Positions 2,620 through 33,518 of a DNA stretch of 33,704 nt are shown here, piece after piece. Under the pieces are notes generated by a model. That model saw only the letters and a list, made by a program, of their open reading frames with translations, ran no database searches and was not told where the DNA came from. Made by a program: the position numbers and the translations under genes. The first letter of the stretch is position 1, and each line of letters begins with the position of its first letter. Source of the DNA: Candidatus Bathyarchaeota archaeon (lineage in GTDB: Archaea; Thermoproteota; Bathyarchaeia; 40CM-2-53-6; RBG-13-38-9); contig SMYQ01000001.1 in NCBI GenBank assembly GCA_007050885.1, positions 1 to 33,704 of the forward strand, given 5' to 3'.

Positions 2620-4102
2620 CCTTGTCAAAGCCGAACAGCTTGACATAGTCACCGAAAAATCCGGGGCACCGGGGTTTCATAATGCATTTGTCACAGTCCC
2701 ATGGGTAGACGCGGAGGTCTGCTGCAATCCGGTTCACGAACTCCCGTGGACGTGGTTCGCTGCCCGAAAAATCGTCCAGGTTCACCCAGTACTCCTTTTC
2801 CCTTCCCTTGCGGATACAGAGCGGAACATTCATCCATTCGCCCCTGGCACTTTTGAGTCCTTTCTCAAGGTTCAGCATAGCTCCGGAAGTGTCCATAATT
2901 ATATTGCTGTTGTGGAAACTGTACTTCACATAGGGGTATGGGTTGGTTGGTGAAAAGACCTTGTCGAATTTTTTGAAGTCATCCAGGCGGGCCAGGCTCT
3001 TGTGGTTCACGCGGAACTCCAGCTCGCACGGCAGGCCCGCGGATTTGGCGGCTTCCAACTTTTCGGCTGCCTGCTTCAGGCCGAGGTTCATGCCATCGAA
3101 TACGGGGCGGATGAATGGCTTCATCCCCTGCTTCTCGACTGCGGATGCCTGGCTCGGGTCATCTATCAGGAAGTTCTCTGAAAACTTGGACGCATTTGCA
3201 GCCTTGTCAACACTTCCTGTGACGTAAGAAAGCTTGGCACCCTTCATCCGGGACCTCAGAACATTTATGTGGTCGCAGAAAGGTCCGCCTTCACAGTATT
3301 CGCACTTCAGGGGATCACAGATTCTCTCGTCCCTCCATACCATTGGCCACATCGAAATGACGTCATGTGTAATGACTTCCCACGGTTCCTTGTGGTACTC
3401 GTATCCCCTCGAAAAATCCTGAATGGGCGTCCGGGTAACCCAGACAATTATCTGGTTCCTTTCTGCATAGTCGAACGCTTCCTTCAGTCCTTTCTTGACG
3501 TCCTCGTGCTTCGGCAGCAACTTGTGCTGCCAGGTGCGGCCATTCGGGGAGGTGCCAACTATGTCGTAGTCGAACCTCCTGAAGCCCATGTCGGCATGGA
3601 TATACTTCACTATATTCCCGAGGTCGAGGACGTTCAGGCTGCTCAGGGCCGTGTTGAAACTCAGGAGGAGTCCCAGGTCCCTGCAGTTTATTGCTGCCTG
3701 TGTTGCTTCCTTGAAACTCCCGGGAGTGCGCGTAAGCGCATCGTGCTTCTCTGGCGTCGAGCCGTGGAAGCTTATTGTCAACTCTGTGAGCCCTGCGACC
3801 TTGGCCTTTGTCGCGAACTTCTTTGAGGAAAACATACGGCCGTTGCTCACCGTCTGGATTCTCTCAAAGCCGAGGCCTTTGGCGAACCGGACAAAGTCGA
3901 GGAAGTCCTTGTGAATCGACGCCTCGCCACCAGTTATGACCAGCCAGGTCGCCCCCCTGGTACGCTCTTCAACAATTTTTTTGAGTATTTTCTCCCTCGG
4001 GAAAAAGGCGGGTTTCCTGGTTTCTTGCAGACAGAATATGCAGTTGCTGTTGCAGCCCATCCCCGTTACGACGATGGACTTCTTGAGAAATTTCTCTTCC
4101 AT
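2579..4102 (-). CDS. Radical SAM protein, HxsC-like paralog A (507 aa)
   Basis: The radical SAM signature C17-x3-C21-x2-C24 is near the N-terminus. The SAM-binding loop reads GGEAS, with Ala where Pro is usual. An SNGRMF strand and an SFHGSTPEKHD segment follow. There are two extra Cys clusters, one mid-protein (CDPLKCEYCEGGPFC) and one C-terminal (C-x2-C-x5-C-PGFF), typical of auxiliary Fe-S binding. The C-terminal motif, the NGRMF strand and the SPNGRTW segment are shared with the rSAM genes at 4102 and 5486, and resemble what I recall of HxsC from bacterial His-Xaa-Ser systems. At 507 aa it is the longest of the three because of a large insert before the C-terminal cluster. ATG 4102 overlaps the upstream stop (TGATG) and has a GGTGGGG ribosome-binding site, so it is co-transcribed and coupled. 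The substrate is unknown; a local peptide is the inference. Confidence 0.85.
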   Translation of the reverse strand: MEEKFLKKSIVVTGMGCNSNCIFCLQETRKPAFFPREKILKKIVEERTRGATWLVITGGEASIHKDFLDFVRFAKGLGFERIQTVSNGRMFSSKKFATKAKVAGLTELTISFHGSTPEKHDALTRTPGSFKEATQAAINCRDLGLLLSFNTALSSLNVLDLGNIVKYIHADMGFRRFDYDIVGTSPNGRTWQHKLLPKHEDVKKGLKEAFDYAERNQIIVWVTRTPIQDFSRGYEYHKEPWEVITHDVISMWPMVWRDERICDPLKCEYCEGGPFCDHINVLRSRMKGAKLSYVTGSVDKAANASKFSENFLIDDPSQASAVEKQGMKPFIRPVFDGMNLGLKQAAEKLEAAKSAGLPCELEFRVNHKSLARLDDFKKFDKVFSPTNPYPYVKYSFHNSNIIMDTSGAMLNLEKGLKSARGEWMNVPLCIRKGREKEYWVNLDDFSGSEPRPREFVNRIAADLRVYPWDCDKCIMKPRCPGFFGDYVKLFGFDKVKAFSRPRGRQTR

Positions 4103-5037
4103 CAGTCCCCACCCGCCCTGCTAACTATGGTCTCCGGCTTGACGAATACAGGGAAAATTTCTTCAGTTCCATACAGGTCTGCATATCCTTTCTTAACACC
4201 CGGACAAATTTCCTTTATCCAGCAAGTGCAACATGCATCGCCCCGAACATATTGCTCTTTGAAGTAGTCATCATTGTGACTTACCCTTTCGACTCGCCTC
4301 ATTATGGTGTTGGCTTCCTTTGTAACTATCCGCCTTAGCTCGGTGGAGTACTCCGAAAACTCCAAGATATAGCAGAGGGGAACTCTTTCGATTCTGAACG
4401 TTTTCCCTTCGTTTACGAGGAAGGCGAGCGACCGCATGAGGAAAGGCTCGATGTGACTAATCCTTGGCACGACTTCTTTATTGTCTCGGGCCCTGCCGAC
4501 CGGGTCCACGAAGTTGAAAGTATAATGCCTAACGAATGGGTATTTTTCAACCATGAACCGTATAAAATCAGGCAGCATCTTGTAATTTTGTTGGACTATC
4601 ACCACTGTCACGGGTGTGTCTAATCCAACATTGTGGGCATTCATCAAGCCGCCGAGCTGCTTCTCGAGGATGCCCACACCACTCATAAGGGCGTCCTCCA
4701 TGGCCGGGTCGTGTGAGTGGATTGAAAAAATTGCCTGGCCGAGCCCGGCTGACTTGAGGCTCCTTGCCTTTTCCTTAGTCATGTAGATGCCGTTGGTCTG
4801 GACGGTCACTTCCGCAAACCCCAGCTCGACAGCATACGTCACGACTTCCTCAAGTTTTTCGTAGACAAGCGGCTCGCCGCCCGTAATGAACAGTTTCTTG
4901 TAGCCTTCTGCCCGGCACCTTTTCAGGAAATCTTTCATGTCACTGAGCTTATGTGAACTCTTCTTGTTACCACCCAGAGAACAGAATATGCAGTCTAGGG
5001 AACAGGCTTTGGTAAGTTCGAGATAAGCATTCCTCAT
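4102..5037 (-). CDS. Radical SAM protein, HxsC-like paralog B (311 aa)
   Basis: Radical SAM C12-x3-C16-x2-C19, then ITGGEP and VQTNG strands, support a TIM-barrel SAM enzyme. A DPVGRARDNKEVVPRIS segment corresponds to the SPNGRTW and HPAGRSWDN segments of its paralogs. The C-terminal cluster is CCTCWIKEICPG, that is C-x2-C-x5-C-x-G, followed by Y...G.EE..PV as in the 5486 gene. I chose ATG 5037. The frame runs upstream to 5091, but the extra 18 codons would include a TATA-like box at 5060-5068, which lies 27 nt before ATG 5037, and the core alignment begins there. It is the first gene of a two-gene unit with 2579-4102. Function is inferred as peptide modification from the family and neighbourhood. 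Confidence 0.85.
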   Translation of the reverse strand: MRNAYLELTKACSLDCIFCSLGGNKKSSHKLSDMKDFLKRCRAEGYKKLFITGGEPLVYEKLEEVVTYAVELGFAEVTVQTNGIYMTKEKARSLKSAGLGQAIFSIHSHDPAMEDALMSGVGILEKQLGGLMNAHNVGLDTPVTVVIVQQNYKMLPDFIRFMVEKYPFVRHYTFNFVDPVGRARDNKEVVPRISHIEPFLMRSLAFLVNEGKTFRIERVPLCYILEFSEYSTELRRIVTKEANTIMRRVERVSHNDDYFKEQYVRGDACCTCWIKEICPGVKKGYADLYGTEEIFPVFVKPETIVSRAGGD

Positions 5038-5045
5038 CGAAAAAG

Positions 5046-5056
5046 TTATTAAATAA
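5046..5056 (+). promoter_or_regulatory. TATA-like box for the 5074 gene
   Basis: The A/T element TTATTAAATAA is centred about 23 nt before GTG 5074, which fits leaderless transcription. It sits next to the opposing TATA element inside a 36-bp divergent spacer. Confidence 0.45.
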
Positions 5057-5059
5057 CCC

Positions 5060-5068
5060 AATATAAAT
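5060..5068 (-). promoter_or_regulatory. TATA-like box for the 5037 rSAM operon
   Basis: On the minus strand this reads ATTTATATT, centred 27 nt before ATG 5037. No ribosome-binding site precedes that ATG, consistent with a leaderless mRNA. Confidence 0.5.
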
Positions 5069-5073
5069 CTAAT

Positions 5074-5499
5074 GTGACTGAAATAGACCAAGAAAAGGTG
5101 TTTTTGGCCATGGGGGCGCTGGTTGTTGGTCTTTTGATTGGGTACTTCGTCGGGGGCATGGGACCCGGACTTGATGCTTCGGATGCATCCAGCGTTATCG
5201 ACAAATTCGCTCCGGGCCAGGCTATCGGAAACCTGACTTTTTCGATGGCACAGAAAACAACCAGCAGGTGTGCCCGGTTATTCTTCAGGACTGAAGAGGG
5301 CGGAATACTCACAGTGAGCGTATGCCCCAAGGACCTGTCAGCCCAGGAAATAGAAGCATTGCGCAGCTTTGAGGATTATCCATTGGCTACCGAGGGGGCT
5401 CTTTACTTTTACGAACTATTGAATGCAAGCGCCATTACGAATAACATCGACGTCCAAAAGAAAGTCGAGTCAGACATAATAACATTCATTGAGTCCTGA
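5074..5499 (+). CDS. Small membrane-anchored extracytoplasmic protein (141 aa)
   Basis: I do not recognise a family. One N-terminal transmembrane helix at about residues 10-32 (VFLAMGALVVGLLIGYFVGG) is followed by a soluble domain of about 105 residues with two Cys, in the contexts SRCARLFF and VSVCPKD, which could form a disulfide. The predicted topology is N-in with the domain outside. It starts at GTG 5074; there is an in-frame ATG at 5110, but that would cut the helix. It is divergent from the rSAM operon with only 36 bp between start codons and overlaps the end of the next rSAM gene by 14 nt. Its place among the rSAM genes suggests a surface component of the same system, which is inference only. 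Confidence 0.7.
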   Translation: MTEIDQEKVFLAMGALVVGLLIGYFVGGMGPGLDASDASSVIDKFAPGQAIGNLTFSMAQKTTSRCARLFFRTEEGGILTVSVCPKDLSAQEIEALRSFEDYPLATEGALYFYELLNASAITNNIDVQKKVESDIITFIES

Positions 5500-6421
5500 G
5501 CACTTCGTTGGCAGAAATACGCTTGCCCGGGACGGGAATAAATTCTTCTGAGCCGCGTTTCTCGACGTACTCCTTCCAGGGTCCCTCGCAAATGCCAAAG
5601 AATGCGCATTCCTTGCAGGAGTCGCCTTTCCATTTTCCCTCGGTCATCCGCCATTTTTCCCATTCCTTCACCTGGAAGTCCGCTTCATAGACGTCGGCCG
5701 GTGGGATGTACAGTTCCGAGACGTATCGCTCGTAGCCGCCCATCAGGCAGAAGGGCATGGCCTCTGACATAACCTTTATGTCGGCGTCTATGCCGACCTG
5801 AAGGCCTTTGTGGATATAGGGCGCGGCCAGCGAAATCCAGGGGACTATGGAATCGAAGTTGTCCCATGACCTGCCTGCCGGATGCGCGAACGCAAGCTGA
5901 TATTGGTTGACGCCAAGTTTAACGAGAAGCTGGGATATGTTCCGCATGAAACGGTAATTTGGCTTGGTGACCACGGTGTTCGAGATTATTTCCACATCGT
6001 ACTGGCGGACGTTCTTGATGCCCTGGACAGTCTGCTTCCAAGAGCCGGGCACGCTTGAAAGATAGTCGTGGAGCTCAGGGACATGCCCGTTAAGTGCGGG
6101 CGAGAACTCGTTCATGCCTGCATCGACCATCTGCTTTGCGAACTTCCCGGAAGCGAACATCCTGCCGTTGGTCTGGACCTGGATGAACTTATAGCCAAGC
6201 TCCTTGGCAAGGGTTACCTGCCTGACTATGTCCTCCCTTATCGTCGGCTCGCCGCCCGTGAATACGACCGCCCTTATGCCCCTCGAAAAAGCTTCCTCGA
6301 GCTCCTGCGATATCTCCTTGGGTTCCTTGTCGCGCTTGGTGTAACGCTTCTTTCCCTGGACGCAGTGCCTGCAGAGGTTGTTGCAGGAGTAACCTACCTT
6401 AAGATCGAGTTTCCTGTCCAT
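5486..6421 (-). CDS. Radical SAM protein, HxsC-like paralog C (311 aa)
   Basis: Radical SAM C13-x3-C17-x2-C20 is followed by VVFTGGEPT, VQTNGRMF and ALNGHVPELHDYL. The segment from the NGRMF strand to PGSWKQTVQGIKN aligns well by eye with the 2579 paralog (PGSFKEATQAAIN), and HPAGRSWDNFDSIVPWIS aligns with the 4102 paralog. The C-terminal cluster is CKECAFFGICEG, again C-x2-C-x5-C-x-G, followed by Y...GSEEFIPV. The PELHDYL strand, PGS block and C-terminal cluster are the features that most resemble HxsC of bacterial His-Xaa-Ser loci as I recall it. The gene starts 8 nt after the stop of the membrane protein at 6430 with a weak AGGGGGTT ribosome-binding site and no TATA box, so it is the second gene of that transcript. 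Confidence 0.85.
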   Translation of the reverse strand: MDRKLDLKVGYSCNNLCRHCVQGKKRYTKRDKEPKEISQELEEAFSRGIRAVVFTGGEPTIREDIVRQVTLAKELGYKFIQVQTNGRMFASGKFAKQMVDAGMNEFSPALNGHVPELHDYLSSVPGSWKQTVQGIKNVRQYDVEIISNTVVTKPNYRFMRNISQLLVKLGVNQYQLAFAHPAGRSWDNFDSIVPWISLAAPYIHKGLQVGIDADIKVMSEAMPFCLMGGYERYVSELYIPPADVYEADFQVKEWEKWRMTEGKWKGDSCKECAFFGICEGPWKEYVEKRGSEEFIPVPGKRISANEVLRTQ

Positions 6422-6429
6422 GCAACCCC

Positions 6430-7152
6430 CTACTGCCCAGTTATACCGAGAACATCCTCTTTATAGTCAATATAAGAGAGGTAATAACAGGTGAAATCAG
6501 GGATGGTCTGCGGCTCCTGCATGACTATGGTCGCATAATCAGAACTGTCATCGAGGCAGTGCTGCCGTAACCTCGCCCGGTAGCGGGCGACACACAGGTC
6601 CTCTGGCACCTCTGCCGTGTATACCTGCGCAAAATTTTCACAGGCTGCAGCATGGACATCTCCTTCGGCCATTTTATGCCGGAGGACGCCCTCAAAATGC
6701 AGGTACTTCCTATAAACGTCCTCATAGGTCTGCGGCACAAATCCATCCACTTCCCCATAGAGGTAATCGAGACTGGCACCCGCCTCACGCTTTATGGACA
6801 GGCATCTCCAGAATGCTATGCCTGAATAGTCCGAACAATTGAAGTCTGGCGCTTCGTTCCATCTCTCAAGGGAATACCAATAAATGACTTCCCCGTCCTT
6901 GGTCTTGGGCTCCTGCAGCTCAAAGTCCACTCCCGGCACCCGGGCAAGAGGATACCCCAAAAGAACGATGGTTATGTAATCTTCGGCAGGTACCGGGTAG
7001 TCTATCTGCGCAAGGAAGACAGGGGTCAGCCGCTCAATCTTGGCTTCAAACTGTTCCTTTATGTTGTCGGAAGAAGGGCTGCCCGATGGCCACAAAAAGA
7101 AAACCCCCGCGATGACCAAGAGGCCCAGAACCCAGGGCAGGTACTTTTCCAT
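6430..7152 (-). CDS. Membrane-anchored Cys-containing extracytoplasmic protein (240 aa)
   Basis: I recognise no known family. One N-terminal transmembrane helix (residues 5-21, LPWVLGLLVIAGVFFLW) is followed by a short Ser/Pro linker and a soluble, largely helical acidic domain of about 210 residues. That domain has eight or so Cys spread along it (FNCSDY, WRCLSI, AACENF, EDLCVAR, RQHCLDD, FTCYYL), so disulfide stabilisation outside the cell is likely. It is the first gene of a two-gene unit with the downstream rSAM gene (8-nt gap), which suggests a dedicated partner, or possibly a substrate or exported scaffold. A TATA-like box lies 26 nt before ATG 7152. Confidence 0.75.
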   Translation of the reverse strand: MEKYLPWVLGLLVIAGVFFLWPSGSPSSDNIKEQFEAKIERLTPVFLAQIDYPVPAEDYITIVLLGYPLARVPGVDFELQEPKTKDGEVIYWYSLERWNEAPDFNCSDYSGIAFWRCLSIKREAGASLDYLYGEVDGFVPQTYEDVYRKYLHFEGVLRHKMAEGDVHAAACENFAQVYTAEVPEDLCVARYRARLRQHCLDDSSDYATIVMQEPQTIPDFTCYYLSYIDYKEDVLGITGQ

Positions 7153-7186: not shown

Positions 7187-8212
7187 CTACACCCACCCGC
7201 GGGCCTTGATGAGGGCACGCTCGGACTTGCAGTAAGTTTCCTCAAAGGTCACCTTGCCTTTGGAGACTTTCCTCTGCAACGGGCAGCCCCCACAATAGTC
7301 TTTCGCAAAGCAGCCGGCGCATTTTTCCGGGACATGACCCGCGAACTCCAGGAACCTTTCTAGTCGCTCCCCGTCCACTTTGACTTCCCCATCGACTTCC
7401 CCGACTATGAACATTTCGTGCTCCTTGGCGGCCTCGGAGGCGACGGGTATACTCTGGCATGTGACTATTTTCCCGTCGACCGTCAGGAAGAACGAGACCG
7501 TCCCACCTCCGCACGATGGCCAGCGGGGCGACTTGGTGGGGGCGGTCTTCGAGAGCCTCAGGTCAAGTCCCCGGGCCTCCAGCAGCCTTTCAAACAGGGG
7601 CACGCGCCGGAAGCACCCAAGGGTATCAACATGGGCGTAGGTGCAGCCTTTCCCGAGGGGGTATAGCACACCCAGGGATACATTTTTCACGCCCAGGGAC
7701 GCCAGGAAATCAGCAATCTCCGCCTCCCTGCCGACCTTGTTTTTAGAGTAATTCATGCGCAAGACGAGCTTGTCGGGGTCTTCGGCAACGACATCCCTGA
7801 TTGTCTTCAACACAAAGTCGCTGGAACCCTTCAAATCCGGAAAAGGCCTTTCCAAGTCGTGGATATCCGGCAAGCCCTCGAAGGTAACATGCAACAGGAC
7901 ATCCCTCTTCAGAAAGCCTTTCAGCTTGCTGTGAGGGAACACGCCGTTTGTAGCGACCCAAACATGGGGGTCAACGTAGTTTTCTTCCGCGACGTCCACC
8001 ATGTCGAGGATTTTCGGGTGCAACGTGGGTTCGCCGCCAGTGAAGTGAATCTTGGTCCGCGGGATGGCATAGTCCGAAAAGAAACTCAAGAAGTTTTCAG
8101 CCCTGCCGTAATCAAGAAGCCGTCCCTCCCTCGAGGCGCTGATGAAGCAGTACTTGCAGCTAAGGTTGCAATGGCTCGCAAGGGAGAGGCCGAGCCACTC
8201 CACAGTGTTCAT
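7187..8212 (-). CDS. Radical SAM/SPASM protein (341 aa)
   Basis: Radical SAM C15-x3-C19-x2-C22 is followed by HFTGGEPTLHP and a VATNG strand. A full SPASM-type C-terminal region carries a SCGGGTVSFFLTVDGKIVTC pair and then CAGCFAKDYCGGCP, that is C-x2-C-x5-C-x2-C, plus a last Cys in TYCKSER. SPASM domains bind auxiliary Fe4S4 clusters and are characteristic of enzymes that modify ribosomal peptides (anSME, PqqE and sactipeptide maturases). It is distinct from the three HxsC-like paralogs and from HxsB in this window. ATG 8212 has a TATA-like box 26 nt upstream and no ribosome-binding site, so it seems to be a single-gene leaderless transcript. A peptide substrate is inferred; which one is unknown. 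Confidence 0.87.
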   Translation of the reverse strand: MNTVEWLGLSLASHCNLSCKYCFISASREGRLLDYGRAENFLSFFSDYAIPRTKIHFTGGEPTLHPKILDMVDVAEENYVDPHVWVATNGVFPHSKLKGFLKRDVLLHVTFEGLPDIHDLERPFPDLKGSSDFVLKTIRDVVAEDPDKLVLRMNYSKNKVGREAEIADFLASLGVKNVSLGVLYPLGKGCTYAHVDTLGCFRRVPLFERLLEARGLDLRLSKTAPTKSPRWPSCGGGTVSFFLTVDGKIVTCQSIPVASEAAKEHEMFIVGEVDGEVKVDGERLERFLEFAGHVPEKCAGCFAKDYCGGCPLQRKVSKGKVTFEETYCKSERALIKARGWV

Positions 8213-8259: not shown

Positions 8260-9084
8260 TCAAGCGTTTTCCACCCACTCGAAGAATTCATCAGACGAAT
8301 GGAACAAGACGCATTCTTCGTCGTCGAATGCAAAGTACACGTCGACCCTGCTTATTCCCATGAATTCTGCGTATCCAGCCAAGGCCTCCTCGACCGATGA
8401 TGCACTGTAATCGCCGTGCCTTTGACTGAATACCGAGAACCTTTCCCCAAAATCACACATGGCCAGGGTGTAGTCGCCGTCGACCTCACCTTCCCGCACG
8501 AAGCCGCAGCACTTGGTCTCCGGCGTCACGTTTTTCATTATGGAAAGGAAAGCGACAGTCCAGTCCTCACAATCCCCCGAACCCATCCGCAAGAACTCAT
8601 CCGGCAAAGCCCAAAAATCAAGTTTGTTATAATTCCGTTCGTCGAATGCGAATCCCAGATTTTCTTTCAGCCAGGCCGAGGTTGCGTGGGCCCTTTCGTA
8701 CGCGGCCGGGGACGAAAACTTTATTTTTTCGAGATAGCCGGAAACAAGGTCCGGTCGGATGTACCTGTTGAGGCAGTCGGCACTCCTGTTCTCAAGGAAA
8801 ATTTTTGGTCTGTTCCTGTCCTCCTTGGAAAGTTTGTAGGAGATGTCGTATGTCCCGTCGGGTTCTATGTCAATCCACATCAGAGCCCCATCCATGATAT
8901 CCGATTTGTTCACCATGACGGAGCTTCCGGAACCGACCAGGACATCATCGATGTAGAAGTCAACAGGTATTCTTGAAACGAATTCCACCCTCTGGCCGCC
9001 GAATTCCCCGAGGACAAGATTGTGTACGCACCCACTAATAAGAACAAGTATAAACAATGAAAGTTTCACTGTTCCGGCTGCCAC
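8260..9084 (-). CDS. Transglutaminase-like putative lipoprotein (274 aa)
   Basis: The N-terminus is a signal peptide ending in a lipobox-like VLISGC (Cys19), so the protein is probably exported and lipid-anchored. A beta-rich segment (residues 30-85) with a PEGA-like look precedes a helical region. The core WALPDEFLRMGSGDCEDW (Cys172) then matches the catalytic-Cys helix of transglutaminase-like/BTLCP cysteine proteinases. The family's His strand should follow about 30-40 residues later. The segment there reads DGDYTLAMCDFGERF, with no His in the usual position, so the triad looks incomplete and the fold may act as a binding or structural module. The start is GTG 9084, 25-26 nt after a TATA-like element; an in-frame GTG at 9069 would also leave an intact signal peptide. 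Role in the cluster is unknown. Confidence 0.7.
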   Translation of the reverse strand: MAAGTVKLSLFILVLISGCVHNLVLGEFGGQRVEFVSRIPVDFYIDDVLVGSGSSVMVNKSDIMDGALMWIDIEPDGTYDISYKLSKEDRNRPKIFLENRSADCLNRYIRPDLVSGYLEKIKFSSPAAYERAHATSAWLKENLGFAFDERNYNKLDFWALPDEFLRMGSGDCEDWTVAFLSIMKNVTPETKCCGFVREGEVDGDYTLAMCDFGERFSVFSQRHGDYSASSVEEALAGYAEFMGISRVDVYFAFDDEECVLFHSSDEFFEWVENA

Positions 9085-9127: not shown

Positions 9128-9478
9128 CTAGCAACTGTTGTGGGTGCCGTGGGAGCCGTGGGAGCTGTGGGTGCCGTGGGAGCTGTGGGAGCCGTGGGTG
9201 CCGTGTGTGGAATGGGTACCATGTGTGCTGTGGGTGCTGTGGGTGCCGTGGGTGCTGTGGGAGCCGTGGGACGTGTGGCTGGCAGTTATTTTCCCGGTTG
9301 CATCCGAATAGCCCACCGTGGGATTGGCTGCCAGGGATGGTAGCATTGAAAGAGAAACTGCCGAAATCAATGACGCGGCCGTCACCAACTTGTTTTTGTC
9401 AAAGAACGCGCTCTCGTCCTTGAAGAGCTTCTCGATTTTTCCGGCGAGGCCCTTCTTGGCCTTTTTCTCCTCCACCAT
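9128..9478 (-). CDS. hxsA: His-Xaa-Ser/Thr repeat precursor-like protein (HxsA-like, 116 aa)
   Basis: This is the likely substrate of the adjacent maturase. Residues 1-30 are charged (Lys/Glu/Asp-rich), residues 31-51 form one hydrophobic helix (LVTAASLISAVSLSMLPSLAA), residues 52-67 are a linker, and residues 68-115 are 16 consecutive His-X-Ser/Thr triplets without a break, ending in Cys116. The middle position is Gly 8 times, Ser 6, Thr once and Asn once; the third is Thr 9 times and Ser 7. Bacterial HxsA proteins of the His-Xaa-Ser system (described by Haft and co-workers) also have an export or membrane segment followed by HXS repeats and lie beside HxsB, HxsC and HxsD. Here the HxsB-like gene ends 42 nt upstream. 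A strong TATA box lies 26 nt before ATG 9478, giving the gene its own promoter. Any modification is inferred. Confidence 0.8.
   Translation of the reverse strand: MVEEKKAKKGLAGKIEKLFKDESAFFDKNKLVTAASLISAVSLSMLPSLAANPTVGYSDATGKITASHTSHGSHSTHGTHSTHSTHGTHSTHGTHGSHSSHGTHSSHGSHGTHNSC
9131..9277 (-). repeat. 9-nt coding minisatellite encoding 16 His-X-Ser/Thr triplets
   Basis: The tandem 9-nt unit encodes His-X-Ser/Thr and continues in frame to the terminal Cys codon. All His codons in the stretch I checked are CAC or CAT, while the other two positions vary in both codon and residue. The protein pattern is therefore kept more strictly than the DNA unit, pointing to selection on the repeat and not recent slippage alone. 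Confidence 0.9.
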
Positions 9479-9499
9479 CAGAATGAGGTAAGCATATTT

Positions 9500-9508
9500 G
9501 TATATAAC
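9500..9508 (-). promoter_or_regulatory. Strong TATA box of the HXS precursor gene
   Basis: The minus strand reads GTTATATAC, centred 26 nt before ATG 9478. It is among the best TATA matches in the window and separates the precursor from the maturase operon, allowing much higher precursor expression. Confidence 0.6.
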
Positions 9509-9520
9509 TTTAACTGCAAG

Positions 9521-10957
9521 TCAGTAAATGTCCTTCGCGCCGAAATAGAACTGCCTTTTTTCCGTTGACCTTGCCCAGTTTTCGAGCATCTGCCGGAACT
9601 TGCCGTCCTTGGAGGCACGCTTGATAAGGTACCGAAGCATCTCGCGGTGCATCTTGTGCCTTCTGTCGAATGCTATTTTCGCGTCTATGCTGCCCGTCCT
9701 GTTGTAAGTCTCGAGGGGGCAGATGCCGCAGAACGGCTTCAGCTCGCAGGAGTCGCAGAGGTTGAACAGCCCGCTCGACGACATGCTCAGACCCTGGAGT
9801 ACGGAACTCTTCATCACTTGGGGATAGCTCATTGAAACGTCGCCTATCCTGAACTCCTCGAACATCCTCCCCTCGTCGCACGTGTATACGGAGCCGTCGG
9901 GCGCATACGCCAACTGGCTCAGGCCCGCACCGCAGGGCATCTGGAGTTCGCAGAATCCGGGGTCTAGCCGTGAAAAAAGTTTCCGCGCCATCACCTGGGT
10001 GATGTTCTCCTTGACGTCTATGCCCCTGTTGTTGAGCTCATACATGTATTCGAGAACGTCCTTCCATGCCTTCACAAACTCTTCAGGCGTGTATCCAATC
10101 TCTTTCCACAGGGCCGGGGCCCTGCCGAAGTAGCTGAGGTACTTGAACCTGACAATATTGAAGCCGTGGGACAGGTACTCGTCGACAATGTCCTTGCCTC
10201 TCGACAGGGAGTGCCTGGTTATCACAGGGAGCGCATTCAGGCCCGGGTATCCCTCCCGCTGGAAACGTCGTATCCACCTGACCACGTCCTTGTAGCTGCC
10301 GCCACCCACACGGTAAGGCCGGTGGATATTGTGCAGGTCTTCGGGCCCGTCGAGCGAGAAGCACACGCCGATATGGTTGTCCATGAAGAACCGCACCTTC
10401 TCCTCGTCCCAGTTTGTGCCGTTGTGTATCATGGCGAATCCCAGGCCCTTGCCGTTCTTTTCAACAATCGGCCTGGCCTTCTCGACTGCTGCTTTGATTG
10501 CCTCAAAGTTCAGGAGCGGCTCGCCGCCGCTGAACTCAATTATCACGGTCTCTGCCGGAGACTGCATTACGAAATCAACGACTTTCTCGGCTGTGTCCAC
10601 GCTCATTTTTTGTTTGCCCTTCGTGTTGGCGTAGCAGTACTTGCAAGCGAAGTTGCAGTCGTCGGTCACGGCCAGCACATGCAGGGAAGTCCCCTTGGTG
10701 AGGTGCCAGAGCCTGTCCTTCATCCTGGCTTTCACGTCGGGAAAATCCTGTTCCGTCACAACTATTCCGGCGGCCCTCAATGAAGCGAATAACCGGGCAT
10801 CCGTTTCCACCCGGTGCGCATTAAGCAGGTCAAGCTCTCTATTTGTGAGCAGGGCCCAGCTGCCCGCGTCCGTGGTAACCAGGAACTTGTCCTCAAGCTT
10901 GCCTTGGCGGAAAGGCAGGACCACGTATTCGTCCACAAAATCGCCAGGGCCTATCAA
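9521..10957 (-). CDS. hxsB: HxsB-like radical SAM/SPASM maturase (478 aa)
   Basis: An N-terminal PqqD-like region begins VVLPFRQGK, with an LLTNREL strand, as in HxsB proteins I recall. It is followed by the radical SAM motif C101-x3-C105-x2-C108, an IEFSGGEPLLNFE loop, FSLDGPEDLHNIHRP and a DPGFCELQMPCGAG segment. The SPASM part has Cys in MPCGAG and in DGSVYTCDEGRM, then CDSCELKPFCGICP (C-x2-C-x5-C-x2-C). This order, with GGEPLLNF, SLDGP.DLHN.HRP, IVDEY..GF and CDE.RM, is what I associate with the His-Xaa-Ser system maturase HxsB. The start is TTG 10957: a GGAGGTG ribosome-binding site sits 8 nt upstream (10966-10972 on plus), and TTG overlaps the preceding stop as TTGA. The expected role is modification of the HXS repeat protein; chemistry is unknown. 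Confidence 0.85.
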   Translation of the reverse strand: MIGPGDFVDEYVVLPFRQGKLEDKFLVTTDAGSWALLTNRELDLLNAHRVETDARLFASLRAAGIVVTEQDFPDVKARMKDRLWHLTKGTSLHVLAVTDDCNFACKYCYANTKGKQKMSVDTAEKVVDFVMQSPAETVIIEFSGGEPLLNFEAIKAAVEKARPIVEKNGKGLGFAMIHNGTNWDEEKVRFFMDNHIGVCFSLDGPEDLHNIHRPYRVGGGSYKDVVRWIRRFQREGYPGLNALPVITRHSLSRGKDIVDEYLSHGFNIVRFKYLSYFGRAPALWKEIGYTPEEFVKAWKDVLEYMYELNNRGIDVKENITQVMARKLFSRLDPGFCELQMPCGAGLSQLAYAPDGSVYTCDEGRMFEEFRIGDVSMSYPQVMKSSVLQGLSMSSSGLFNLCDSCELKPFCGICPLETYNRTGSIDAKIAFDRRHKMHREMLRYLIKRASKDGKFRQMLENWARSTEKRQFYFGAKDIY

Positions 10958-11157
10958 TTTGTCAGCACCTCCAACATCCTGTTGAACCCTTCGTATACTT
11001 CCTTCTCGTCGAACTTCCCCTGGAACACCAGGTAGTCGCCTACTTTCTCGCCTTTGCCGAAGCAGAGTTTGACAAGCTTTTCCGGGTAGAACCTTAGATT
11101 CACTCGAAAAACTGTTTCACCCTTTCTTTTTGTTACTCCCTTCACTGCCCTCACCAA
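10954..11157 (-). CDS. Small HxsD-/PqqD-like partner protein (about 67 aa)
   Basis: This is a short beta-alpha protein with no family I can name firmly. Its FRVNLRFYPEKLVKLCF opening parallels the KIKAEVFPIDLVYTAA opening of the HxsD-like protein just upstream, followed by a second strand (DYLVFQGKF) and a helix (EVYEGFNRMLEVL). It may be a shortened duplicate that binds the precursor leader or the maturase. The start is uncertain: TTG 11157, GTG 11154 or GTG 11145, the last having a GGTGAG site 4 nt upstream. All overlap the HxsD stop, and its own stop overlaps the HxsB TTG. Translational coupling on both sides argues that it is a real gene. Confidence 0.65.
   Translation of the reverse strand: MVRAVKGVTKRKGETVFRVNLRFYPEKLVKLCFGKGEKVGDYLVFQGKFDEKEVYEGFNRMLEVLTN
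10966..10972 (-). promoter_or_regulatory. Ribosome-binding site deciding the TTG start of HxsB
   Basis: GGAGGTG on the minus strand lies 8 nt before TTG 10957. It favours this start over the in-frame GTG at 10936. Confidence 0.65.
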
Positions 11158-11554
11158 ATTTGTCTTCCCAGAGGGTAGCTATGTCCTTCTCGTCGAAGTC
11201 TTCCTCGGGCTCTTCCTGCTCCACTACAGGGGCTGCAGCAACCCTCCCTTCGGCAAGACTCGCCACCAGGGCTTCGCGCATCTCTTTGTTTCGGACGAAC
11301 TGAACGGTGTGGAACGCTGCGGCTATAAGCTCGTCGTAGAATATCCGGCCCAGCTCTTCCAGGTCGCCCTTGTATTTTCTCGGCTTTAGGATGGCATAGA
11401 CTTCTTCACTGGGCGAACCGTCAAGAATTACGTAAGCCCTCTCCATGACTCGATGGGCGGCGGTATAGACTAGGTCAATCGGGAATACCTCGGCCTTTAT
11501 CTTGACCACGACTACTCCGCTTTTCTTATCCGGCTTTATGAATTCGGAGGTCAT
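11117..11554 (-). CDS. hxsD: HxsD-like protein (145 aa)
   Basis: HxsD is a small protein of unknown biochemistry that accompanies HxsB and HxsC in bacterial His-Xaa-Ser loci. Here a strand (VVVVKIKAEVFP) and a helix (IDLVYTAAHRVMERAYVILD) are followed by a second strand (EVYAILKPR) and a helix with FYDELI and MREALVASL. That is the strand, 'aa-x-ra-YV-ilD', 'L-P', 'F-x-(N/D)-(D/E)-L ... (L/M)RE' order I recall for HxsD. The last 40 residues are an acidic tail ending in a Ser/Asn/Lys stretch, possibly a lineage-specific extension. ATG 11554 overlaps the stop of the A24 peptidase gene (ATGA), with a GGGGTGGGAT site upstream. The similarity is moderate, so the call depends partly on context. Confidence 0.6.
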   Translation of the reverse strand: MTSEFIKPDKKSGVVVVKIKAEVFPIDLVYTAAHRVMERAYVILDGSPSEEVYAILKPRKYKGDLEELGRIFYDELIAAAFHTVQFVRNKEMREALVASLAEGRVAAAPVVEQEEPEEDFDEKDIATLWEDKFGEGSEGSNKKKG

Positions 11555-12255
11555 ATCCCACCCCAGACAAGAAGGTAAATAAAACTTGCGGAAATGAACG
11601 GCGCCGACGGCAGGTGGCCCTTGAACCGGATTGATGAGACCAGGAAGAATATGAATGTGGACGCCAGGGCCTGGAGGGCCCGCGCAGGCGACATCAGGAA
11701 GGCCACCAGGGCTGCCGCAGCTATCGGCACCTTAAGTTTCTCCAGCTTCTGCCCTAAGAAGAACAGCATAAAGAATATGGGGAAGGCACTGACACCCAGA
11801 GAGGCCATGAACGGCGAGATGACGACTGGCAAGAGCATGCCGGGACTGAACCGGGGGCGGAACTCGAATTTTCTCGTGACGAGTGCCTCGAGAACTGTGG
11901 CAGCTATGGACAAGATGAGGAAACAGAGGAGCGGTGTCAGGAACTGCGACGAACTGGTCGGGTGGATAAGCGTGCTCATGGCTGTATAGAACTTCACGTC
12001 GCCGGGTTTCCAGAAGTCAACAAGCCAGAGGAGGAGGGATATCAGCGCTGAAACAATTACGAACGCGAAAAAAATTCCCATTTTCCCCGAGTTCGTGAAA
12101 TCGGAGAAAAAGACGGAGTTGAGAATAACCGAGACGGCCAGGATGCGCACTACCAGGGCATTGGGAATTTTCCTGTACCTGAAGTCCAAGTAGGATGCTG
12201 TGGTTGCAAAGAACAATAGCGACGGCACGAAGAGGAAGAGTTCAGCACCTTGCAT
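11551..12255 (-). CDS. A24-type (prepilin peptidase-like) membrane aspartyl protease (234 aa)
   Basis: A24 proteases (PilD, FlaK, EppA) are polytopic membrane enzymes that cleave class III signal peptides using two Asp. Here D24 lies in YLDFRYRKIPNALV, matching the D-x5-IPN motif, and D86 lies in KPGDVKFYTA, matching the GxGD motif with its first Gly replaced. About six to eight hydrophobic helices and a HLPSAPFISAS end resemble the family's FGPFLA end. The start is ATG 12255, because GGTGAT lies 5 nt upstream; the reading frame could extend to TTG 12261. It overlaps the upstream gene by 14 nt and the HxsD-like gene by 4 nt. Bacterial HXS loci are not known to me to include such a protease, so a role in processing the HXS precursor or a pilin-like protein is an attractive inference. 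Confidence 0.8.
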   Translation of the reverse strand: MQGAELFLFVPSLLFFATTASYLDFRYRKIPNALVVRILAVSVILNSVFFSDFTNSGKMGIFFAFVIVSALISLLLWLVDFWKPGDVKFYTAMSTLIHPTSSSQFLTPLLCFLILSIAATVLEALVTRKFEFRPRFSPGMLLPVVISPFMASLGVSAFPIFFMLFFLGQKLEKLKVPIAAAALVAFLMSPARALQALASTFIFFLVSSIRFKGHLPSAPFISASFIYLLVWGGI

Positions 12256-12577
12256 CCGCAATCACCCTGTTCCTGCCGTCGGGGAGGAATATTGAAATGT
12301 TTGTCAGACTCTCGCCCGGCGGGAATGAGAGAATGGAACTGTTCTCATACACGACTGTCCAGAGCTGGTAGATAGTAATTGTGATGTTGCACTCAATTTC
12401 CTGGTCGAAAAAGTTTGTGAATCCCAGTTCTGCCTTCCCGGCCTTTCCATCGATAACCCGCCCGCCTTCGTAGATTTTGAGCGCAGATGGTCCCCCCGCG
12501 CTGCGCGGAGAATTCCTAACGAAAAAAAAAATTGATAATGCGACAAGGAGAACCAACAAAATGTCGAAATGTTTCAT
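12242..12577 (-). CDS. Small membrane-anchored extracytoplasmic protein, first gene of the HXS operon (111 aa)
   Basis: I recognise no family. One N-terminal hydrophobic helix (residues 5-20, DILLVLLVALSIFFFV) is followed by an extracytoplasmic beta-rich domain of about 85 residues. It has an EIECNITITIYQLW strand, N-glycosylation sequons (NIT, NSS, NIS) and a C-terminal Cys (ADARC), an immunoglobulin-like or pilin-like beta layout. The hydrophobic N-terminus, small size and adjacency to an A24 peptidase raise the possibility of a pilin-like substrate, but no clear class III cleavage motif is visible. ATG 12577 lies 26 nt from the TATA-like element it shares with the giant divergent gene. Confidence 0.7.
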   Translation of the reverse strand: MKHFDILLVLLVALSIFFFVRNSPRSAGGPSALKIYEGGRVIDGKAGKAELGFTNFFDQEIECNITITIYQLWTVVYENSSILSFPPGESLTNISIFLPDGRNRVIADARC

Positions 12578-12598
12578 GGAATCAAGAGAACCGTCAGC

Positions 12599-12606
12599 TT
12601 AAAATA
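12599..12606. promoter_or_regulatory. Shared bidirectional TATA-like element between HXS operon and giant surface gene
   Basis: TTAAAATA on plus (TATTTTAA on minus) is the only clear A/T box in the 51-nt spacer. Its centre is 26 nt from ATG 12577 on the minus side and 26 nt from ATG 12629 on the plus side, the leaderless spacing seen elsewhere in the window. Confidence 0.5.
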
Positions 12607-12628
12607 TGTGGGTATTTACACAATTCCA

Positions 12629-15600
12629 ATGGCGTTAAGGCATGCTTTAGTTATCATCCTACTCATTTCCACGGCCTTTGGAGAATACGCCTATGTTGTC
12701 GTAAGGGACCCCACCACCACCTGGAGAAGTGGAGGCATGCAGTTTATGTCATACCTTAACGGCACGTCTCCACCTTGTAATACCCAAAATGGTCAAAATG
12801 CAATAAGTACTTGTGGTTATCAATACGATTGGAGTATAACTGGTCATTGTGACGTAGAAGGGGACTGGCAGGCCCAGGTTTATTCGTACACAATGGACTG
12901 CGACAAGAGCTCTACCTGCTCTGGTTCCGCAGGGGGCAACACATATTGCATTGACTTCCCTAACGAGTGCCCTTGTGGCGGCGGATCGTGTAGTGGTTCT
13001 TTTCCAGGTGTATGTTTGAACGGCTGTGGTTGCAGCAGCCCTTCTCCATATTCCTGCACAAAAGTCGAATACAGCGGCTGGGTCAACATCTACAATATAA
13101 ACTGGGACGCCAAATCCACGGACTGCACCTGCTACGGAAAGCAGTGGTTCACAAGTGTTTCTGGAGGCACAGGGGGGAACTGCTGCGGGGACGACACGAC
13201 CGCAGACGACTTTTATTATCATAGCGCCAACCCGACAATCGCGATCTCACTGGCCTGCACCCGTTGCCTGGACGGAACAAAGTACGGGCCCACAACACTT
13301 TACGGGAACGGGTACTGGACGGGGACCACCTGCTATTATGGGAACATAGTCTGCACAGCCAGCAGCGCGTCACACGGCACGAGTGGGTCTACATACTGCT
13401 CATCAGGCATAAGCCAGTGCTGCCCAACCCAGGCCAACCGGGCTGAAGGCGTTTCGTGCAGCGACGGGTCGATAGGCGGCACCCTTTACGACAGGGACAC
13501 TAGCTCGGCGAGGTGCACCGACGGGAGCAGCACCGGGTGCACCGCCTACACCTGGACGGGCACGGCATGCTGCGGGAATGACGGCAGCGAAAGCTATTGT
13601 GAGGGTGATAAACAGACTGCATGTGTGAGCGGGACTGCCTACAATACCGACTCAAATTCAGGGGCCTGCTCGCAGTGTGGCGGGACTTGGATGGGCGCCT
13701 CGTGCTGCGGGGACGACGGGGGCGAAGTCTACAGGACCCGGGTGTGCACCTCCGGCTGCACCTCGGACAGCGGCGACAACGCCTGCTGCGATGCCTCGAC
13801 GGACTGCGTCCTCAGCGGGACATGCTACAATAGCGGGAGCTACGCCTGCAACGGGGACACGGTGCTTTACTGCAACTCGGGCAGTTGGCAGTCTGCCAGT
13901 AACCGCGGCGACACGGATACCGATGGCAACAGGGAAGGCTGCAAGAGCGGGCAGTGGGTCGAAACCAAGATAACCAGCGCCTCAAGCTCATACAATTATG
14001 ACGGGCATCCGAGCCACTACAAGTATTGGCCGGAATACGTGAACTACGTAATTTACTACGTCAATTACCAGACTGAAGCGCAGGTGGCTCAGGTGACCAC
14101 TCCAACTGTAAGTGGCGAGGGCGATTACAAGGTGACTTACTGCGTGGATGACGACCTTTTCACAGGATGCACGCCGACCACAATCGGCAACCGAGGCACC
14201 TGCACAGACGGGGTCGTGAAGGACTACGGGGCCCTTGAACCCGCTTCCGGAACCACGTATTATGACGACCAGTACCGCGACTGCGACACAGGCAACCCAT
14301 CCAACATCCTGTCAAGGGACCCGTATGACAGCGGAAACAACATGAGAATCTACTATGAAGACATGGCATGGCCTTACGGCAAGTACCAGATATGCGCCAA
14401 CTACACTGACGTGAATGACCTGAACTCCGACCCGTATTGTGTGATAGTGATAGACGAGTATGAGGACGTGACGGTGAGTTCCCTGAATACCAACTACCAG
14501 AAAGGCACCACCGGAGTGTCCTGGAGCGGGACGGTAACCGACCGGTATGATACTTCACCCCCACAAGACAACTTCTTGGAACTCAGGTGCAGGACATATG
14601 ATGCGGACTGGTATCACAGTGTCACGAGCGACAATGGATTGTCGTTCAGCGCGAGAGGCATATACCAGTGGGACGATTACTGGGCATACTTCTATTTGTA
14701 TTATGGAACTTCGAGCAGCTCGGGACAGAGCGGGACGGTAACTTCAACCATAACGTTCCCCAGCAGCTGCTACCTGAGGGACAGGGACAGCAGCGACGAT
14801 TATTCATTCTATCACCACAACTGCAACTGGTATCATGAAGTTGATGGTGCCGACAAGACTGTCTGGTGCTGTCCCGGGGGAAGCTGGTCCACGAGCAGCT
14901 GCACCAATGGCGACTCTTTCACGGTGTCTGGCCAGTATGGGGGCACGCTCACGATAGCAAATGCCATAACCTATTCAGGAGGCACGACACCCAATGACAA
15001 CAGCGACGATATACGCGTATATGTAGAGTGCCCCAGCGGGACAGGCCTCGGCAACCCCTCAGACCCTTACTCAATAAGCCTGTCCGGACACGACTACTTC
15101 TGGATGGGTGACGTAGACTACGGCGGAAGCTCCTTCTCGGCCCCGTTCCCCGACGGGGCATACACCTCGAACTATGACTTTACGGGCGCCAGCAACAACG
15201 AATATTCCTGTTCAATCGACCTCATAACCTGCGGCAAGCAGAAGCTTGGGACTGAAGCCTATGACTCCTACGAAACTCATGGAGGCACTTGGACGAGTGT
15301 AACAATGGTCGACGAAATCACAGTCTCCAACCCGGGACTTTCCGGTTCTACAAACACCCTGACTCCGAGCGTGGACCTAATCTACTGCTCACACGACAGC
15401 CGCAGCGCACAGATAACCTGCGAACTCAACGACGCCACGCCGGACACCTCCGGCTACTACTGCCAGGGGAGCGACACTCTGGCCAACACCGCCACGTCAG
15501 TGAACTGCAATATCAACGGCGCCAGCTGCAGTGGCGGGTCTAACACCGTATACTGCCGCGCGGATGACCCCACATACACGAACATAGAGGGCACGTCAAT

Positions 15601-18600
15601 CTCACAGTTTTCCTTCAATCCAGATGACGGCTCAGGTTACTGCCAGGGATGTGGTCACAGCTGGCTTTCGGGCACATGCTGTGGGGACGACAGCGGGGAA
15701 GACTTTGAGAACCCGGGCAGCGGGAACTCTTGCTGTATCAATGCTGAAGCAGTTCCAAATAATGCAACCGACACGAGTGGGAAGTTGCTTTGCCTCGACG
15801 GGGAGATTTATGGGTGCATAAGTGGATGCGGTGCCAGCGGCGAGACCATCGACGGCGCATGCACAAGGAGGGACGGCCGGTATTGCGACGACATAACATC
15901 CGACACATGGGTGACCCAGATTTCTGCGGGTGGGACGCCGGACGACTGCGACGGTTCGGGGACTGAATATCCATACGGGGCTGACGAAGCAGGGACAACG
16001 TATGACAAGGAGACCTGCCTGGGAAATGCCATGTGGAATGACCGCGGCAATGGAGTGTCAAACCAGAACATGGGCTATCAGTGCCGGGACAACACATGGA
16101 ACGGCCCGTTCATCGCAGACTGCACGCTCTCGCAAAGCGGCTCCGGGGACGAATTCATGACCATAACGGCATACTGGGAAACTTCTGATGAAACGCCTGA
16201 CACATATTCCAATACGGGCCACCACAGATGGAGAATCGACAATGATGGCGCGGGGACAGGTGCCTGCGTCTATGGCACCAATGGCTGCTACTATGACACG
16301 GGACTTCACAACGGCTGCGACAATGTCGACGCCAACGAGGGCTCAAATGGTGACTACCACAGCGAGACCATCCAATGGTCCGCCTTTGTCACCAAGCCAA
16401 GCGCCGAGACTACATATTATCTCGAGATAGGCGAGGAGGAATGCAGCTCCTCACAGATAACGGCCGATGAAGACCCGAACGACAATGAGGGGTCATGCAC
16501 TGACACGGCGACGCTCTGCGTGCCGCCGGGGTATCTTGCCACCACTGACAGCGGCTGCTGCCCTAACGGCGCCACTACCGGCACGTATCCGGGCAAGGAC
16601 GACGACGGCGGCAACTGCGTGAAGTGCAGCGCGGAAACGCAGACGCTTGGCGGCACAGGCAACGGTGCCTGCGAACAGAAATGTGGTGCGGCCGCAAACT
16701 GCGACGAAACTGTCGCCGGCGAATGCCCGAACAACCAGTACATTTGCACCTCGAGTTGCGCATACACGGACAGGGACACATCGGAGGCCTACTGTGAAGA
16801 CAGCTCCGGCTGCACGGCCTTTGTCTGGACGAGCGCGAGCTGCTGCGGCAATGATGGCGCGGAGACGTATGTGGACGCAGGGGACACCAATTTCCTGTGC
16901 AACCTAGGCACCGCATACTCGTGCAACTCGCCGCACACCAAGACCACTGACGTGGACCACAACACGGGTGCCAAGGTGGGCAGCTACTACTGCACGGCCT
17001 CCGGATGGAGCATGACACCTCCTCCCGAGGACGAGAATATAGTCAGCTGCGAAGACGGCAGCGACATCTGGATTGGCGGCAGTCTTGAGGAGGGCTGCTG
17101 CGAATCGGGCGAAGAATTCATCGCCGAGGACGTCGTGGAAGACCGGATGGAAGCTTATTTCAAGTTCGACGAGTCACCCGGGACAAACAAGACAGACGAC
17201 GAGCAGATAGGGCTTGTCGGCGACCTGCTTGCGGACACGACAATCGTCACTTCCTCGTCGGAGGTCGTTTCTGGCAACGCCATGTCATTCGACGGGGCGG
17301 GCGACTATATCAACGTGCCACATAGCGGGCTGCTGAATGTGAGCCAGAACATGACGATTTCATTCTGGGCCAAGCCGGGCTCCATGTCCAACTACATACG
17401 ATGGCTTAGCAAGAGCTACTACTCAACAGACAAGCGGGGCTGGACCATCCTGAGAGCCACAACAGATTCGGTCTACCTCGCGATGTGGGATTCCAGCAGC
17501 GTCGAACGGAGCAGCCCACAGATAAGTTACACTCAGGGCGAGTGGGCGCATTTCGTCTTTGTCTATAAGCATCCGTATGTGTATTCTTACAAGAACGGCG
17601 TGCAGGTAGGTTCACCTACCAATGTCGGCAGCTGGACGTTTGCGAACTCTGCAGAGTCGCTGAAATTCGGCAAGGGCTACGGCTCAAGCTATTACACAGG
17701 GAACTTGGATGAGGTCATGATATGGACGCGCTCTTTGAATGGCGACGAAGTGGCCGTGCTTTACCGGCAGTTCCCTGAGTACCCGCAGAGTGATGTGCTC
17801 ATATACCTGCCGATGGACGAAAATTCAGGAGGCACGACCGCCGACTATTCCCAGGCTTCAAAGACAGGCACACTCCAAGACAACACGGCCTGGGGGCCTG
17901 GAAAGAGCGGCAGCGGCCTGGGCTTTGACGGGAGCGGCGACTACGTGAGCTTCTCCAGCGGCAGCGTCGTAGAGACGGAGGACCAGCTCACGGTTGCTGC
18001 CTGGATAAATATCACCGAAATGAGCGGGGCAGACTACTTTGTCGGTGAGGGCGCGGCCTTCAGGGTTGGCGTCACGGGCACAGACGAGGTGACTTGTTGG
18101 ATACGTGGCAACAACTCAGGCGGGTCTGACACTTCGGATGCCACCACAACGACTTCCAGTCCAGTGGCTTCGACCAACAAATGGTACCATGTGGTCTGCA
18201 CCTGGGACGGGGCGGGAGGCGGCGACAGAAAAATCTATGTCGACGGGCGGCTGGTCGTTGATGGAAGCTCGGCCGTTGTGGAACTGAATGGCGACAGCGA
18301 CAATTTCGCCGTCGGGACGGGTTATGCTGGGTCAACCGAATACTTCAAAGGCGGTGTTGAGGAAGTCCGCGTCTACAACAGGGTTCTCACCGAACAGGAA
18401 ATCAAGTACCTATATGGCGTGGAGAACTGGAGGAAGTACGGCTGCGACTCCGGAGCGCTGGTCAGCTGTGAGGGCGGGGATGACTGCACGAAGAACCTGG
18501 ACGAAGGCGGAATAGCCTATTATTGTTATAACGGCACATTCAAGGACTACCGGGAGGTTGTGGATGACTGTCCTGGTGCATGCACGAGCCAGGGGGGAAC

Positions 18601-33213: not shown

Positions 33214-33234
33214 CCGCAAATGCGGAGTGTTTAT

Positions 33235-33518
33235 GCCCGGCTAGGCTGGGGGGCTGACGTCCCCTGTCCCTTAGGGGTCCACAAATCGTCTTGGTGGGGC
33301 CGAAGCCTGGGGGAAGGGGTACACTGCGCGGGGTGACATCCTGGAATCCGGGACGTCGAAGCCCTGCACTGCGGTGGCCTCATGAGTGCTGAAACAGGCC
33401 AGGTCCGGAAGGAAGCAACCTTAGGTGCTTCTTGGGGTGCCCGTAGAACGCGGGGTGGAGTTCCGCTCTGGGGAGAAACCTTGCGAAAGAACTTCGACCC
33501 TTGGGTGTGCCGGGCACT
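33235..33518 (+). ncRNA. Signal recognition particle 7S RNA
   Basis: The helix-8 asymmetric and tetraloop block is unmistakable at about 33388-33425 (AGGCCAGGTCCGGAAGGAAG, then the CAACC counterpart of the usual CAGCC). The 5' GCCCGGC (33235-33241) pairs with the 3' GCCGGGC (33509-33515), closing helix 1 around a body of about 280 nt, typical of archaeal 7S RNA. GAC/GUCC-rich helices in between are consistent with helices 2-5. The SRP RNA scaffolds SRP54 and SRP19 for co-translational membrane targeting, needed for the many exported proteins here. The ends are approximate; a T-rich stretch (CTTTTTAATTT) follows at about 33531. Confidence 0.93.

Follow-up and report, generated by a model that had tools for sequence, protein, structure and literature searches.

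The His-Xaa-Ser (Hxs) system, made up of HxsA, HxsB, HxsC and HxsD (TIGR03976, TIGR03977 and TIGR03978), is attributed to Haft and Basu by PMC9062424. Here we describe a related gene cluster in a 33,704-nucleotide stretch of contig SMYQ01000001.1 from a Candidatus Bathyarchaeota archaeon, hereafter the window. We lean towards reading it as a divergent archaeal Hxs system, in which a repeat protein is predicted to have its His-X-Ser/Thr triplets modified by an HxsB enzyme, likely before export. As in the Hxs system, a repeat protein, an HxsB-type SPASM enzyme and an HxsD relative are encoded side by side. Unlike in the Hxs system, the best HxsC score of any radical-SAM protein in the window is 86.9 bits, against a cut-off of 267.9, HxsB lies 15 bits under its own cut-off, Thr occurs besides Ser at the third position of the triplets, and the cluster adds a short second protein like HxsD, which many other HxsB loci also have, an A24 peptidase and four further radical-SAM genes. 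Because the HxsA4, HxsB and HxsC cut-offs are missed and HxsD gives no direct hit, we regard the cluster as a divergent relative and not as a textbook HxsABCD set. An earlier note, made from the sequence alone, had proposed an archaeal Hxs system; its archaeal setting, HxsB homology and HxsD link stand, subject to that divergence. That the product is a surface peptide and is processed by the protease stays at the level of inference. The window carries the archaeal markers TBP, CDC48 and diphthamide-synthesis genes, as well as an archaeal signal recognition particle (SRP) RNA (33234-33516, plus strand; 94.6 bits, slightly below the gathering score), a call that superseded the initial label of this segment, Bacteria_small_SRP.

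Among NCBIfam models, HxsA4 (NF038313) is the best for the repeat protein and HxsC4 (NF038332) for two of the extra radical-SAM proteins. The window differs from these families in scoring far under their cut-offs (55 and 500 bits, respectively) and in having three HxsC4/HxsC/MoaA-like radical-SAM proteins in its cluster. NCBI already names archaeal proteins HxsB, so archaeal occurrence is not wholly unknown. The earlier note knew of no archaeal description, and a literature search that covered few subscription papers likewise found no paper on an archaeal Hxs system, its second HxsD or its A24 partner; the database names qualify that statement.

Radical-SAM enzymes that form three-residue cyclophanes, or triceptides, offer another comparison. 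The passages of PMC11002830 on these enzymes name YhhB, HaaB and ScaB and give C2(His)-Cbeta links as known; the spacing of the window motif fits theirs, with an aromatic residue at position i and the putatively modified residue at i+2, while long tandem His triplets are not described in those passages. The NCBIfam YhhB model matches the window HxsB only at E 5e-18. The SCIFF precursor is Cys-based, in contrast to the His-X-Ser/Thr repeat. Its maturase, CteB (5WGG/5WHY), lacks the Asp that follows the Aux I Cys in the window HxsB, and the latter differs from anSMEcpe (4K36) in its extra N-terminal domain, its predicted repeat-peptide substrate and the replacement of the last SPASM Cys by His434.

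The repeat protein and the HxsB-type enzyme

All six genes named by the earlier note are present on the minus strand at 9128-12577. They encode, from the first gene of the run onwards, a putatively exported protein of 111 aa with a hydrophobic N-terminal segment (12242-12577); an A24 peptidase of the prepilin-peptidase family (11551-12261, TTG start); a 145-aa HxsD relative (11117-11554); a 67-aa protein (10954-11157, TTG start); the 478-aa HxsB-type radical SAM/SPASM enzyme (9521-10957); and the HxsA-type repeat protein (9128-9478). The genes had been described as all overlapping, which is true from 12577 down to the HxsB gene; the repeat gene is separated from the HxsB stop by 42 nt. The extent given for the cluster was also too narrow, in that the same-strand run continues from these genes down to 2579 and includes four more radical-SAM genes, five in total.

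Relatives were collected in a neighbourhood survey in which 598 stretches matched, 558 were confirmed and the best 80 were kept, giving 79 HxsB loci (37 archaeal and 42 bacterial, by database record); the bacterial loci are accordingly those nearest the archaeal query, and the frequencies reported below are not unbiased. Two of the loci, L006 and L073, belong to one genome. Neighbourhood counts extend over all 79 loci, gene maps over 54, and the TIGR03976 and TIGR03977 searches over 45 loci (44 genomes).

The repeat protein consists of a charged leader, a hydrophobic segment and 16 perfect in-register H-X-S/T triplets, with Thr at nine and Ser at seven of the third positions, followed by a terminal Cys. 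The 16-triplet array reported in the earlier note is confirmed; 20,000 shuffles of its 48 residues produced at most 7 consecutive triplets. The protein scores 33.5 bits against HxsA4 (E 6e-8). Its leader, KIEKLFKDESAFFDKNKL, and the hydrophobic stretch behind it are common to the Altiarchaeota kin, and a leader of the type KIKKxIxxFLxxEEGKISK occurs in many other repeat proteins. A hydrophobic segment was found in 40 of 42 repeat proteins compared (L014, cut by its contig, was dropped), the exceptions being L024 and L068, whose HxsB falls in the Myxococcota part of the tree. Triplets were counted in 43 repeat proteins, with L032 and L062 dropped and L118 and L119 not included. In the five proteins of the Altiarchaeota branch, 85 of 90 third positions are Ser or Thr (43 Ser and 42 Thr), while in the 38 others Ser occupies 518 of 574 and Thr none. 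With Ser-only and Ser/Thr branches side by side, the predicted target residue can be put to a direct test.

The HxsB relative matches TIGR03978 with 354.8 bits (E 6.8e-106), which upholds the identification of an HxsB-like enzyme although the equivalog cut-off of 370 is missed; the HxsB of a near kin, G001, scores 370.5 bits. The PapB and QhpD models are also high-scoring. C101, C105 and C108 form the radical-SAM CX3CX2C motif, and the SPASM cysteines C342, C360, C401, C404, C410 and C413 are invariant in an alignment of 22 sequences (A1, from 120 listed proteins). At the position of the last SPASM Cys, equivalent to the Aux II ligand Cys348 of anSMEcpe, the window (His434) and L115 have His, and L001, L002, L116 and L118 have Cys, so that a His-ligated cluster is possible. 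In an AlphaFold2 model (pLDDT 87.8) the nearest solved folds are anSME and CteB; the N-terminus contains strands in residues 11-37 and helices at 39-46 and 54-63, and the alignment with CteB begins at residue 15. A Myxococcota-type HxsB branch (L052, L055, L059, L068 and L077) lacks the Cys-Asp pair by the pattern used, possibly reflecting a change of chemistry.

In a tree of 83 HxsB proteins, whose sampling is biased to the query, the archaeal and bacterial labels change only twice. The window HxsB groups with Altiarchaeota loci, in a clade with L001, L002, L115 and L116 (support 100/100, stem 0.92; the bootstrap was not fully settled). One bacterial record, L017, an Aminicenantes metagenome bin, stands among the archaea, where its position would reflect transfer or misbinning. 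The Altiarchaeales IMC4 and Nanohaloarchaea-type proteins of L020, L025, L031, L036 and L045 form one clade, and the 4 kb around HxsB in these loci contain no HXS repeat open reading frame (ORF) of at least 3 triplets (L031 and L036 lie near contig ends).

HxsD relatives and the A24 peptidase

The 11117-11554 product had been called HxsD-like, with a match to TIGR03976 proposed as the check. That direct match (cut-off 50 bits) fails, as does any other NCBIfam or Pfam match at E<=1; what stands is an indirect link. By blastp the protein matches L001 (2e-38) and ORFs of L027 (6e-25) and L003 (3e-23), the last two of which pass TIGR03976 with 51.1 and 55.9 bits. A profile grown from it matched ORFs in 74 of the 79 HxsB loci, and it keeps the family's C-terminal IAxPWEEK-like motif. 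Given indirect links only, we call it a divergent relative and not a member by NCBI cut-offs.

Two HxsD-type ORFs occur in 28 of the 37 archaeal and 32 of the 42 bacterial loci. The 67-aa protein, present as described and left without explanation in the earlier note, occupies the slot of the short HxsD in other loci and is probably a shrunken second HxsD paralogue. Using hhalign, it matched the short-HxsD profile with 48.6% (E 1.8e-4) and the long-HxsD profile with 21.6% (E 0.001), and the short and long profiles matched each other with 98.4% (E 6e-15); alignments A3 and A4 hold 36 of 42 short ORFs, and the window plus 38 of 61 long ones, respectively. A 63-aa database entry, P0121, suggests that the 67-aa protein starts 4 codons later. 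In the Elusimicrobia-type loci L043, L057, L058, L071, L072, L076 and L079, the second HxsD-type ORF lies directly behind HxsB, not before it.

The peptidase gene was identified correctly by the earlier note: its product passes the PF01478 gathering cut-off (35.1 against 26.5 bits), and both catalytic Asp motifs can be read from its sequence, D26 in DFRYRKIPN and D88 in PGDVK. It is 36% identical to the A24 protein of L001. The pairing of such a protease gene with the system is supported by the survey, in which 25 of 37 archaeal and 9 of 42 bacterial loci have an A24 gene no more than 4 kb from HxsB. For well-flanked loci, with no less than 2.5 kb upstream and no less than 1.5 kb downstream, the figures are 18 of 23 archaeal and 7 of 29 bacterial. 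With 45 Pfam A24 genes in about 23 Mb, from 20 of these archaeal genomes, some 2% of such stretches would contain one by chance. The real background lies somewhat above this figure, because the sensitivity of the local A24 profile exceeds that of the Pfam one.

Conservation of the cluster and its further genes

The set of A24 peptidase, HxsD, short HxsD, HxsB and repeat protein recurs in distant archaea. The repeat gene lies directly behind HxsB in the window, in the five Altiarchaeota loci that show this point (L001, L002, L115, L116 and L118), and also in distant archaea and bacteria. Of 10 genomes of the Altiarchaeota phylum, 6 have both HxsB and the repeat protein, and in the other 4 neither was detected; the 6 include a partial HxsB at a contig end in G049 and a repeat protein in G047 that was found by a local blast match and missed by the genome search. 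L001 is the only kin locus in which the genes preceding the 67-aa gene can be seen, and they match the window gene for gene. The 111-aa protein, for which NCBIfam and Pfam gave no meaningful family match, has its homologue there at the same position (31% over 68 aa, E 2e-6).

Seven genes follow the repeat gene. A transglutaminase-like/LapG-like protein with an N-terminal hydrophobic segment (8260-9084, minus; PF01841 25.2 bits, cut-off 23) is followed by a 341-aa PapB/HxsB-like radical-SAM protein (7187-8212, minus; PF04055 47.6 bits), a 240-aa protein of unknown function with an N-terminal hydrophobic segment (6430-7152, minus) and a radical-SAM protein nearest HxsC4/HxsC (5486-6421, minus). 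Beyond a 141-aa protein encoded on the opposite strand, again with an N-terminal hydrophobic segment (5074-5499, plus), lie a radical-SAM protein nearest the MoaA and HxsC models (4102-5091, minus; PF04055 71.4 bits) and one of 507 aa nearest HxsC4/HxsC (2579-4102, minus; PF04055 55.4 bits). Three of the four extra radical-SAM proteins are thus nearest HxsC4/HxsC/MoaA models, all below cut-off: the 5486 and 2579 products score 146.1 and 108.3 bits against HxsC4, and 84.2 and 86.9 bits against HxsC, while the 4102 product scores 81.8 bits against HxsC and 86.8 bits against TIGR02668.

This downstream cluster is kept in five Altiarchaeota genomes, L001 plus L119 (G001), L002 (G002), L115 (G050), L116 (G048) and L118 (G049), each copy being visible only in part because of contig ends. 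The 5486-6421 product is the best conserved of the cluster proteins compared, at 64-71% identity in five Altiarchaeota kin; the 2579-4102 protein reaches 57% in L002, 54% in L115 and 55% in L118. The L116 contig ends before the position of the latter gene, and L119 has no match to it, the convergent large gene following directly on the 4102-5091 counterpart. Immediately downstream of the repeat gene, homologues of the 7187-8212 protein are encoded in L115, L116, L118 and L119 and, in two copies, in L002. The 6430-7152 protein has weak homologues in L002, L115, L116 and L118, its slot in L119 being filled by an unmatched 255-aa ORF, and the 5074-5499 protein has matches at the same place in L002, L116, L118 and L119, with an unmatched ORF in its L115 slot. 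No counterpart was found in other copies of the cluster for the transglutaminase-like gene, which in the window separates the repeat gene from the 7187 radical-SAM gene; its product gave no blastp match in the 79 loci or in L118 and L119, and no tblastn match in L001, L002 or L115-L117. This product might act on the repeat protein, by processing or cross-linking it.

Among well-flanked loci, at least one further radical-SAM ORF is present in 19 of 23 archaeal and 29 of 29 bacterial cases, and at least three in 12 of 23 and 13 of 29, respectively. The complete genome behind L013 has six HxsC-type matches, five of them no further than about 10 kb from HxsB.

Two large genes border the window's cluster. 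Divergent from its first gene is that of a 2881-aa Cys-rich protein with two Laminin_G_3 stretches (12569-21214, plus), which may share a promoter region with it. A large protein with a C-terminal hydrophobic segment (10-2619, plus) is encoded convergently at the other end, with relatives there in L002, L115, L118 and L119.

Predicted chemistry and competing explanations

We propose that the charged leader of the repeat protein would be bound by the N-terminal domain of HxsB, which may be RRE-like as in CteB, together with the HxsD and short-HxsD pair, probably a heterodimer. HxsB would abstract a hydrogen from the C-beta of the Ser or Thr of each triplet, the reaction we favour, and the resulting radical would most likely close onto the imidazole of the His two residues earlier to give a three-residue ring, as in triceptides; alternatively, as in anSME, oxidation of the radical might give a carbonyl. 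Further modifications may be introduced by the HxsC4-like radical-SAM enzymes and by the 7187 enzyme. The hydrophobic segment would direct the product to the membrane, where the A24 peptidase may cut the leader or signal segment, so that the modified-His chain is released or displayed outside.

A number of observations weigh against this scheme. Every Hxs cut-off tested on window proteins was missed, and the literature search, with the coverage stated above, turned up neither a product nor a mass or activity for any Hxs system. Only 17 of 37 archaeal and 20 of 42 bacterial loci, or 10 of 23 and 16 of 29 when well flanked, have a repeat ORF of at least 3 triplets in the 4 kb around HxsB, so that HxsB may have other or distant substrates; some loci are cut by contig ends. 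Where Thr occupies the third position, as at 42 of 90 sites in Altiarchaeota, a link from C-beta to imidazole would need a quaternary carbon. By the pattern used, the Cys-Asp pair is missing in 5 of 83 HxsB proteins (L052, L055, L059, L068 and L077); L068 nevertheless has a 17-triplet repeat ORF, and therefore the Asp is not always needed. The sequence link between the 67-aa protein and HxsD is weak, Foldseek returned no match at E<=0.001 for HxsD, and the idea of an HxsD dimer derives from a weak likeness to Rpb11, DCoH and Pcc1 only. No A24 cleavage site could be identified, and many A24 relatives near HxsB were unmatched by the motif patterns used.

HxsB might instead be an anSME-like enzyme that converts Ser and Thr side chains to carbonyls (formylglycine or ketone) without ring formation, yielding a reactive His-rich exported peptide. 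We hold this to be doubtful: simple oxidation of Ser needs neither a strict three-residue period nor an aromatic His, the Cys-Asp pair is absent from the five proteins just listed, and the high-scoring PapB and QhpD models describe enzymes that form cross-links. It is very unlikely, in our view, that the repeat protein is an unmodified, exported, metal-binding His-rich protein and that the product of the radical-SAM genes is some unrelated cofactor or peptide. Unmodified His-rich repeats can bind metals, and 42 of the 79 HxsB loci have no recognisable repeat ORF nearby (some being contig-cut), but the repeat gene lies directly behind HxsB in the window, in five Altiarchaeota loci and in distant archaea and bacteria, a leader motif is shared, and the presence and absence of the two agree across 10 of 10 Altiarchaeota genomes.

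A last alternative is that the A24 peptidase and the 111-aa protein are chance neighbours from a pilus or archaellum pathway. Pilin processing is the usual role of A24 enzymes, further A24 genes exist in these genomes, and no classical class III signal can be read from the sequence of the repeat protein. Set against this are the 25 of 37 archaeal loci with a nearby A24 gene, where about 2% would be expected, and the A24 genes near HxsB in the Clostridia L061, L065 and L066, with HxsC over its cut-off in L061 and L065; we judge a chance association unlikely. A divergent Hxs system stays our preferred reading. A more far-reaching version of it, which as a whole we put forward only tentatively and hold to be doubtful, is that Altiarchaeota and DPANN archaea export a polymer of back-to-back modified His-X-Ser/Thr rings made by an RRE-bearing HxsB, with an HxsD heterodimer presenting it, several HxsC4-like radical-SAM enzymes modifying it further and a dedicated A24 membrane protease trimming it, and that the Altiarchaeota HxsB acts on Thr besides Ser, a natural specificity switch in a system of possibly ancient archaeal standing.

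Sequence patterns gave the Hxs system its name, and no chemistry for it came up in our literature search. The present comparison indicates that it is frequent in archaea and that, in the 83-protein, query-biased tree, archaeal and bacterial HxsB separate but for one row. The anSME-like Asp, D361 in the window HxsB, narrows the choice of reaction, and the recurrent short second HxsD and A24 peptidase suggest how the substrate may be held and processed.

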